In this document: positions 6,252 through 27,256 of the stretch, one piece after another | Numbering within the stretch: the stretch's first letter is position 1 | Layout of the letters: the number at the start of each line of letters is the position of its first letter | Assembly (NCBI GenBank): GCA_015231965.1 | Contig: JADGAP010000001.1 | Span: 1 to 32,015 of the forward strand | Length of the DNA: 32,015 nucleotides | Source: Magnetococcales bacterium | Lineage (GTDB): Bacteria; Pseudomonadota; Magnetococcia; Magnetococcales; JADGAP01 | Reading direction: 5' to 3' | The notes under the pieces: model-generated | Told to the model about the DNA's origin: nothing | Database searches by the model: none | The model's input: only the letters and a program-made list of their open reading frames with translations | Program-made: the position numbers and the translations under genes

Positions 6252-6535
6252 TAGTCATCCCATTTCAGATTGGCGCATTGGAAGATTGATGGAGCAAGGA
6301 ACTCATTCCCCAAAATAGACCGTCATTCCCGCGAAAGCGGGAATCCAGGAAAGCCAATAGGCGAATGGCTCACTTCAAAAAAACGGAAAAGGAGCTTGGT
6401 TACTCGTGGCAATGTCTGCATTTTCCTCCCCCGCCCCTGGATTCTCGCTTCCGCGGGAATGACGATGGTGTGTTTGAAAAAATGGGTTGCATCCCCTGAC
6501 GCCGCTTGAGGTCATGCCCCATTTTTAATTGGAAC
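6252..6535. mobile_element. MITE-like repeat, copy 1
   Basis: Left end tagtcatcccatttcagattggcgcattgg. Internal arms 6321-6349 and 6436-6464 are inverted copies of CGTCATTCCCGCGAAAGCGGGAATCCAGG (2 mismatches). Right flank gttgcatcccctgacgccgcttga is shared with copy 4. Confidence 0.75.
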
Positions 6536-25012: not shown

Positions 25013-25321
25013 TTACGCCGCAACCCCTTCCCGGGGTTGGATCTCCCGGGCGATGCGGGCGGCGTTGGCAGCTTCCGCCGTTTTCAGGTCGAAGGAGGTT
25101 TGCAGATTCAACCAGAATTGCGCCGTGGTTCCGAGATAGCGGGCCAGACGCAGGGCGGTATCCGCGGTCATCCCCCGACGGCCTCGCACAATGTCGTTGA
25201 TCCGACTGGCGGGAACCCGCAACGCCAGGGCCAGGGCGTGGGCGCTCATGCCCAACTCCGCGAGTACTTCTTCGCGCAAAATTTCCCCGGGATGAATGGG
25301 GGGCAGTCCGTTGGGGGTCAT
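25013..25321 (-). CDS. higA: HigA family antitoxin
   Basis: PPIHPGEILREEVLAELGMSAHALALALRVPASRINDIVRGRRGMTADTALRLARYLGTTAQFWLNLQ. Confidence 0.93.
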   Translation of the reverse strand: MTPNGLPPIHPGEILREEVLAELGMSAHALALALRVPASRINDIVRGRRGMTADTALRLARYLGTTAQFWLNLQTSFDLKTAEAANAARIAREIQPREGVAA

Positions 25322-25333
25322 CTTGCCTCTCCC

Positions 25334-25615
25334 TTAGCGATGGTAGTCTACGATTTCGACCTCGTAGGCGTGGGGCGTCTTCCACACGAAGCACAGACGC
25401 CACCGATCATTCACGCGCATACTCCATGTCCCTTCCCGATCCCCTTTCAACGCTTCCAAACGGTTGCCGGGAAGTTGCGCCAAATCCCGGAGTTCTGTCG
25501 CCTGATCAAGCATTTGAAGCTTGCGCACCGCCTGCCTCAAGCAGACCCGCCAACGGACGGAATCCCCCGTCTCGAACAGCTTTTGTGTTTCGGCGCAACG
25601 AAAGGATTGAATCAT
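25334..25615 (-). CDS. higB: HigB family (RelE-type) toxin
   Basis: MIQSFRCAETQKLFETGDS...LRDLAQLPGNRLEALKGDREGTWSMRVNDRWRLCFVW...VEIVDYH. Confidence 0.92.
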   Translation of the reverse strand: MIQSFRCAETQKLFETGDSVRWRVCLRQAVRKLQMLDQATELRDLAQLPGNRLEALKGDREGTWSMRVNDRWRLCFVWKTPHAYEVEIVDYHR

Positions 25616-25672: not shown

Positions 25673-26677
25673 TTACCCCGCCTCATCATCCAGCATTTTG
25701 GCGTCGGGGAGGGTGGCGCGGATGGTGGCGGTCAATTTTTGGCGGCACTCTTCCGGATTCTGCTCATCCCAGATCACGGTCAGGTGATGGTTGGTATCGA
25801 AGTGGGATTTTTCTTTCTCGAACAACGACTTTTTGCAGGTGTAGATCACATCCTTGCCCAACCCCTCGGCGTAGCCCGCCTCCCAATAAGCCCCATTGTT
25901 GGCGTGGGTCAGATCGGCGATCAAAAACCGGCTGGATTTGATCTCCACCCGCATCCGGTCATCGATCAAACCGGCCTTGGGGTCGTCATCCAACCGGCGC
26001 AGGGCGAACCCCGCCGCCGCCACCGCCGGACGAAAATGGCGGTCCACCATGGCATCCAACTCGGCGTCGCCAAACTTCATCGCCATGAAGGCGTTCCGCC
26101 CCGACGCCGCGCCGCGCTTCAGCTCCTCGTAACGCTCCCAACCTTTGAATGTAAGTTGGATGTAAGCCGCACCTACAGCAGCATGAACCCCATCTTGTTG
26201 TGAAAATGCTGCAAACGATCCTTGAATGAAGCCGAATTTTCTCAACTCCTCGATAATGAATGCGAAATTATGATATCCGAGATCCGTTCCGATGACAGCG
26301 CCATGTTCTACGAAATTGACCTCTACCATGGCACCTGGAACCCAATGACTATCCCCGATCCAGCGAATAAGATTATCGCCCTGCTCTTTCGGAGAAGGCA
26401 ACACGCTCCCTTCGAAAACCTTCTCAATATTCATTAACTCAATAAATTCAGGCTTCTTCGCCACCTCAAATCGTTGTCGAATCGAATAACTTAGGGCCGC
26501 CCGCGATTTATGAACAGATTCCATATCAACTTCGCTGGATTGCGAACTAAGGAAGGATCTTGTATTATGTGTACATGCATAGTTTCCACACCTCGGGCAA
26601 TCAAAATACATGTCCGTTAATGGAACGACTTTATCAGGATTAATGACAACATTTTCACAAACCGGGCATTTAGCCAT
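25673..26677 (-). CDS. Zinc-ribbon protein with C-terminal TIR/nucleoside 2-deoxyribosyltransferase-like domain
   Basis: N-terminal CPVC...CPRC. C-terminal NAFMAMKFGDAELDAMVDRHFRPAVAAAGF...RFLIADLTHANNGAYWEAGYAEGLGKDVIYTC. Confidence 0.8.
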   Translation of the reverse strand: MAKCPVCENVVINPDKVVPLTDMYFDCPRCGNYACTHNTRSFLSSQSSEVDMESVHKSRAALSYSIRQRFEVAKKPEFIELMNIEKVFEGSVLPSPKEQGDNLIRWIGDSHWVPGAMVEVNFVEHGAVIGTDLGYHNFAFIIEELRKFGFIQGSFAAFSQQDGVHAAVGAAYIQLTFKGWERYEELKRGAASGRNAFMAMKFGDAELDAMVDRHFRPAVAAAGFALRRLDDDPKAGLIDDRMRVEIKSSRFLIADLTHANNGAYWEAGYAEGLGKDVIYTCKKSLFEKEKSHFDTNHHLTVIWDEQNPEECRQKLTATIRATLPDAKMLDDEAG

Positions 26678-26737: not shown

Positions 26738-27058
26738 CGTCATTCCCGCGAAAGCGGGAATCCAGCCGTTGTTTCCATGCGCCTTACCCCTTCACCACGA
26801 CAACACAAGCACCGACATGCGTCGAAGCATCCAAGTTATATTAATATAGCCAACTAGTCAACAGCGACAATACCATGGATTGGCTTCGGTGTTTGAATGA
26901 AAATCTACCCATTTCATCTGGGACGAAAGATCGGCGGTTCAAGAACACAAAGGCTGGATTCCCGCTTTCGCGGGAATGACGTTTTCATGGGGGGAAAGTT
27001 GGTTGCATCCCCTGGCCCCGCTTGACGTTATTGAGGTGTACTTAAGTATTTGAACGTC
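26738..27058. mobile_element. MITE-like repeat, copy 4 (divergent interior)
   Basis: Perfect 30-bp inverted arms CGTCATTCCCGCGAAAGCGGGAATCCAGCC at 26738-26767 and 26952-26981. Right flank gttgcatcccctggccccgcttgacg is shared with copy 1. Confidence 0.75.
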
Positions 27059-27256
27059 ATTCCAAAGCTCGTCCTCGGGATTGTCCCAAACGTGGCCCAT
27101 GGCCTCCTCCTGAGCGGAGATCAACTCTCCCACCCCTCCGCGAGCCGCGCCCGGACCGTTGCGAAACTCCAGATAGGCGATAAATTCAAGAACCTCGCGG
27201 GCCAGCGGCTCCGGCAACCGATCCCCCTCGCGATGAAGTTGTTCGGACAGGTTCAT
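26939..27256 (-). CDS. DUF2281-like small protein (antitoxin-like) with MITE-derived C-terminus
   Basis: RLPEPLAREVLEFIAYLEFR...MGHVWDNPEDELWNDV is native-looking; QILKYTSITSSGARGCNQLSPHENVIPAKAGIQPLCS is encoded by repeat copy 4. Confidence 0.6.
   Translation of the reverse strand: MNLSEQLHREGDRLPEPLAREVLEFIAYLEFRNGPGAARGGVGELISAQEEAMGHVWDNPEDELWNDVQILKYTSITSSGARGCNQLSPHENVIPAKAGIQPLCS

Follow-up and report, generated by a model that had tools for sequence, protein, structure and literature searches.

A zinc ribbon, winged-helix and NDT/TIR-like protein encoded beside higBA in a Magnetococcales bacterium: a candidate single-gene anti-phage effector

Results

The window analysed in this work, a stretch of 32,015 nucleotides from a Magnetococcales bacterium, encodes on its minus strand a protein in which a zinc ribbon and a predicted winged helix precede a C-terminal domain resembling nucleoside 2-deoxyribosyltransferases (NDTs) and TIR domains, and the toxin-antitoxin pair higBA follows it (Table 1). 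The open reading frame extends from an ATG at 26677 to a stop at 25673 with no internal stop, and its product contains the motifs CPVC (residues 4–7), CPRC (27–30), FMAMKFGD (197–204) and FLIADLTHANNGAYWEAGYAEGLGKDVIYTC, all of which were found where the first-pass annotation had placed them. Its placement of the gene directly upstream of higBA on the same strand was likewise borne out, with a gap of 57 bp to higB. The gene is single-copy in its own genome (3.82 Mb in 314 contigs). Upstream of it are a short DUF2281-like ORF and then glmU- and transketolase-like genes, the latter two identified by reading the sequence; the window copy thereby adjoins higBA and housekeeping genes, with no defence island at that place.

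The DUF2281-like ORF (26939–27256) is probably a decayed remnant, and its last codons extend into a REPIN-like repeat. Repeats of this kind (TTCCCGCGAAAGCGGGAATCCAG) are dispersed in the window at 6326/6437, 14828/14940, 24336 and 26743/26954, where none is expected by chance; three of the places are inverted doublets with a spacing of about 110–210 bp, and two repeat places flank the gene and higBA. An Rfam scan of the window gave no match, and promoter and terminator scans gave scores near chance.

Table 1. Positions in the window of the gene, its predicted domains and key residues, and the adjacent toxin-antitoxin genes
Feature	Position	Strand	Basis
Zinc ribbon, winged helix and NDT/TIR-like enzyme, whole gene	25673..26677	minus	ORF, 334 aa
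N-terminal zinc ribbon, residues 1–39 (C4, C7, C27, C30)	26561..26677	minus	Cys conservation and weak Zn-ribbon Pfam matches
Winged-helix domain, residues 96–176 (H96–110, H122–129, H135–147, wing 151–155/170–175)	26150..26392	minus	Predicted structure and Foldseek
NDT/TIR-like catalytic domain, C-terminal, residues 188–326	25700..26116	minus	PF05014, Foldseek, hhalign
F197, Phe at NDT/DNPH1 active-site Tyr position	26087..26089	minus	36/36; global hhalign alignment
E266, predicted catalytic glutamate	25880..25882	minus	36/36; aligned with NDT catalytic Glu
HFD motif, residues 292–294, family hallmark	25796..25804	minus	Invariant 36/36
higB toxin, downstream neighbour	25334..25615	minus	PF05015, 2.7e-14
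higA antitoxin, downstream neighbour	25013..25321	minus	TIGR02607, 4.5e-33

Genome contigs yielded 13 relatives, nearly all of them full-length and with best segments 35–47% identical, and alignment searches added further relatives from the bacterium's own order, the wider phylum, viral contigs and plasmids. The alignment comprises 36 members (the window protein and 35 others), and its tree has two well-supported branches. Residues invariant in all 36 include F197, A199, G262, Y264, E266, A270, G272, H292, F293, D294 and W303. The 13 relatives, together with invariant residues in 36 diverse members, place the ORF far beyond chance. The four ribbon cysteines are complete in 28 of the members and jointly absent in the other eight, and because they are retained or lost together the ribbon behaves like a genuine unit of zinc-site type, discarded by part of the family. 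Members without the zinc ligands (L027, L028, L053, L054, L061, L068, L069 and L073) mostly have a CxIW...SxxxGGxY-like pattern and keep the catalytic motifs; they represent a natural control for the role of the ribbon.

An AlphaFold model of residues 1–190 (pLDDT 85.6, pTM 0.81) matched in Foldseek almost only winged-helix proteins of the MarR/PadR type (probability mostly 0.9–1.0, E 0.02–0.15), and on this prediction a winged helix, overlooked in the first-pass annotation, is situated between the ribbon and the enzyme. The zinc-ribbon sensor that had been proposed therefore needs to be redrawn: the ribbon cysteines are present, the presumed sensory half would combine the ribbon with a MarR/PadR-like winged helix, and zinc is not an essential part of it since the site is lost in 8 of the 36 members.

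The whole protein, modelled from 13 sequences (pLDDT 79, pTM 0.64), matched NDTs, the SARM1 TIR domain and DNPH1 in the PDB at a Foldseek probability of 1.00 and with E-values of only 4e-3 to 5e-2, which therefore identify the class of fold and not the member of that class; the SARM1 TIR domain reached a TM by target of up to 0.66 (E only 4e-3) and NDTs scored equally. In the first alignment each of the 13 members matched PF05014 (NDT) at E ≤ 0.1 (best 1.5e-7), the window protein itself at 19.3 bits (E 0.0013), which is under the curated cut-off of 28.8 bits, and an hhalign profile-profile comparison with NDTs from other genomes gave 92% and an E of 6e-7. Profile searches of solved chains returned Rcl/DNPH1 as the nearest natural chain (E 0.09–0.17); no PDB chain was a relative by sequence at E < 0.05, and a single-sequence phmmer search of the PDB gave chance-level matches only. 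A match of ~95 residues at the C-terminus to the PADLOC 'TIR' effector PDLC00733 was found in 13/13 members (best 5.8e-8). The TIR Pfam models had no match up to E 0.1 in the 13 members, and classical TIR membership was ruled out on that ground, the detectable sequence kinship being to PF05014. An NDT/TIR-like fold, as put forward in the first-pass annotation, is thus predicted and upheld as a fold class, the classical TIR reading excepted.

E266, which is within GAYWEAG, aligns to the catalytic Glu of NDTs in the profile alignment and, in Rcl/DNPH1, to the Glu of the corresponding motif, in agreement with the earlier assignment of the Glu of WEAGYAEGL to the catalytic position. A global profile alignment, which is an alignment of sequences and not a structural superposition, pairs F197 with the Tyr of the YLAGP motif of NDTs, and the family has lost the DxGT Asp of NDTs, mostly to Asn or Arg. 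In NDTs and DNPH1, which are 2'-deoxy-specific enzymes, the Tyr forms a hydrogen bond with the catalytic Glu, and NADase TIRs usually have Phe or Ala at this position (PMC11204291). The occurrence of Phe there in 36/36 members therefore indicates a ribose substrate such as NAD+, and the alignment would favour NAD+ over deoxynucleosides. The Tyr-to-Phe change provides a sharp, testable prediction of substrate.

Carriers are sparse: 5 of 398 genomes in a sample of the phylum, 7 of 351 in one family, 15 of 385 in one class sample (two near-identical genome draws being counted as one) and 3 of 48 in the bacterium's own order, or about 1–6% of sampled genomes. At 45/45 loci, counting one contig twice, the GC content of the gene is below that of the flanking sequence, by a mean of 8.6 points (−8.6); 90 genes of comparable length from carrier genomes, used as controls, averaged +0.2 points (p 5e-16). 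Relatives are found on plasmids, some of the plasmid matches being to catalytic-domain relatives only, and prophage-like carriage also occurs among them. Three relatives on viral contigs were identified by alignment search, and the window protein alone as a query of those contigs gave no match. Phages had no match with the window protein or L053 as query; with L024 as query the only matches were catalytic-domain relatives, carried by temperate Streptococcus phages and one Dorea phage. A catalytic-domain relative in the integrase-repressor region of Streptococcus phage SM1 is gp11 (L106:3929–4588), and relatives of the SM1 gp11 type are candidate prophage-encoded exclusion genes.

The neighbourhoods of the relatives were scanned with PADLOC over up to two genes on each side at 43 loci (143 proteins, a few shadow ORFs having been dropped by hand) and at 59 other places in carrier genomes (247 control proteins, chromosomal only), and a strong defence match was defined as E ≤ 1e-50. 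Strong matches were obtained for 11 of the 143 neighbours versus 1 of the 247 controls (Fisher p 1e-4, with proteins within a locus not independent). Counted by locus the figures are 7/43 versus 1/59 (p 0.009), and 5/39 once plasmid and viral loci are excluded (p 0.035), a modest per-locus enrichment. The association of homologues with defence genes, which the first-pass annotation had proposed to survey, was accordingly found. The neighbours concerned are a type III methylase, a type III restriction enzyme, a DrmD-like helicase and PDC-S13 in L007, a cytosine methylase in L013, bSEFIR in L027 (2.4e-100), BilD in L028 (8.8e-169), PDC-S15 in L060, HEC-01A/B in L064 and HEC-08 in L066, with the cytosine methylase and the type III pair assigned to their loci by reading the sequences, as the pooled scans name no members.

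Many relatives are single among housekeeping-type genes, after thiC, uvrD or groEL, or between nuoF and nuoG. The last arrangement is seen in L053 (7984–12739), where an insertion of the family gene separates the nuoF-like from the nuoG-like gene. In one family, four genomes (L052, L056, L057 and L058) carry the relative downstream of, and on the same strand as, a ThiC-like gene; in L057 the two are separated by a single ORF that is dCTP-deaminase-like (L057:8584–9237; PF22769, 1.4e-3, under the cut-off). This adjacency reflects either conserved use of one insertion place or a link of an unexplained kind. An uncharacterised gene close to the family gene is conserved between two Burkholderiaceae loci (L009:6684–7514 and L011:9757–10584), and the L009 copy had no PADLOC match.

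Discussion

Our analyses place the window protein in a sporadic, previously unnamed family with a new architecture in a crowded class, and both fold and family are solid. A search of the literature, covering open-licence papers, found no paper on the combination of ribbon, winged helix and NDT/TIR-like domain. Because its patchy, AT-rich relatives are often found among anti-phage genes, the protein is a credible candidate for a self-contained immune effector, and a role in defence is probable. We give about an even chance to the fuller reading that it is a single-gene, horizontally moving anti-phage (abortive-infection) effector, whose N-terminal sensor half is joined to an N-glycosidase that is most likely an NADase; enzymatic activity, NAD+ as the substrate, sensing by the N-terminal half and abortive infection are the elements that we infer. 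If so, an unnamed single-gene family in which a module of nucleic-acid-binding type is fused to the catalytic domain joins the immune effectors of the TIR/NDT class.

Potentially, the zinc ribbon and the MarR/PadR-like winged helix keep the protein inactive until that half recognises an infection-linked ligand. Nucleic acid would be the simplest such ligand, since zinc ribbon and winged-helix folds commonly bind DNA or RNA. Recognition, probably with oligomerisation, would then unleash the C-terminal domain, with E266 serving in the cleavage of an N-glycosidic bond; the bond between nicotinamide and ribose in NAD+ would be the most likely target, and the loss of NAD+ would stop growth and abort phage replication. 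A more specific proposal, that phage DNA or a DNA structure induced by the phage binds to the ribbon and winged helix of this one protein and so activates the fused NAD-destroying domain directly, is tentative and on balance doubtful. If it were true, such a DNA-triggered NADase would be sensor, switch and killer in 334 residues, with no partner, messenger or reverse transcriptase, and whether DNA binding can itself activate an NADase is a question that could be asked with one small protein.

Possibly, the enzyme makes a signal instead, converting NAD+ to a cyclic ADP-ribose-type messenger for a partner effector; ThsB makes a messenger of this type in Thoeris. Two unrelated relatives adjoin genes for MAP3K_TRAF-binding/TPR-S proteins, TPR-S being named a sensor in Pfam: that on an Aliarcobacter plasmid is directly before its partner (L105:5393–6667), and that of L062 overlaps its partner by 4 bp, with the partner first (L062:7724–9049). 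The partners, from unrelated hosts, share 44% identity, and these pairings keep the signalling alternative alive, as does the bSEFIR gene adjoining the relative in L027. However, most loci, the window included, are without a common partner gene and the L105 relative is a shorter form, and we regard a signal-making role as unlikely.

Quite unlikely, in our assessment, is that the protein acts as an N-glycosidase on DNA or deoxynucleotides, with the ribbon and winged helix bringing the NDT-like domain to DNA from which it would strip bases, or with the enzyme destroying free dNMPs during infection. The nucleic-acid-binding habit of both N-terminal folds is consistent with such a role, as are the sequence kinship to NDTs and the position of Rcl/DNPH1 as nearest natural solved chain, and action of NDT domains on DNA has been proposed (PMC3710099). 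However, the Tyr that is tied to 2'-deoxy specificity is Phe throughout the alignment and the DxGT Asp is not kept.

The MarR/PadR-like winged helix, the adjacency to higBA and the other toxin-antitoxin genes beside relatives could also suggest a nucleotide-sensing transcription regulator, in which the NDT-like domain would do no more than bind a nucleotide ligand, leaving the winged helix to control neighbours such as higBA. This is improbable given the invariant Glu at the catalytic position and the lack of a conserved target gene. Toxin-antitoxin genes do recur, with higBA in the window, a ParE toxin in L071, Zeta in L051 and a toxin-type GNAT acetyltransferase in L055, yet no kind is found twice. 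No higBA was recognised beside the other relatives that were read, and higBA was rejected as a partner because the linkage is unconserved.

An ordinary nucleotide-salvage enzyme with accessory domains, which the PF05014 similarity and the position directly or nearly directly after a ThiC-like gene in four genomes of one family might suggest, is highly improbable for a gene that so few sampled genomes carry, that has no conserved metabolic partner, that is AT-rich against its flanks everywhere and that has plasmid and viral-contig copies. A thiC-linked metabolic role was set aside, as the thiC adjacency is confined to one clade.

Comparison with known systems

The family resembles NDTs (PF05014) and Rcl/DNPH1 in fold, in the catalytic Glu of a GxxxExG-type motif and in sequence-profile kinship, and it differs from them in having Phe for Tyr, a lost DxGT Asp, a ribbon and winged helix, the HFD motif and a sporadic spread. 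DUF4062/Swarozyc proteins are TIR-like NADases (PMC13174449) that have in common with it a conserved Glu in a TIR/NDT-like domain, defence-gene neighbours and a patchy spread, whereas their accessory domains differ; membership in that group was rejected because the 13 members had no DUF4062 Pfam match up to E 0.1. An NDT-like domain is also shared with the effector of Retron-Eco1 (type II-A), for which the title of Carabias 2024, as cited in PMC12548924, gives NAD+ hydrolysis in filaments. A retron effector was rejected for the window protein, as its contig has no reverse transcriptase (RT) and the genome has its sole RT match on a different contig; solved retron effector chains gave no sequence match and the PADLOC retron models no match. 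An assignment as a CBASS effector found no support, no CD-NTase being recognised beside the gene among its neighbours higBA, the DUF2281-like ORF, glmU and transketolase.

Likeness to the PADLOC effector PDLC00733 is confined to the catalytic domain of the family. With bSEFIR and other single-gene defence proteins of the TIR class it shares a single-gene logic and a Rossmannoid TIR-class domain, although no sequence similarity to bSEFIR, itself a neighbour in L027, was seen beyond the class. The most economical account is a self-contained effector that has spread horizontally, with a sensor half of nucleic-acid-binding type and a killing half directed at NAD; it would work like the NADase effectors of the TIR/NDT class, and the family is assigned here to no named defence system.
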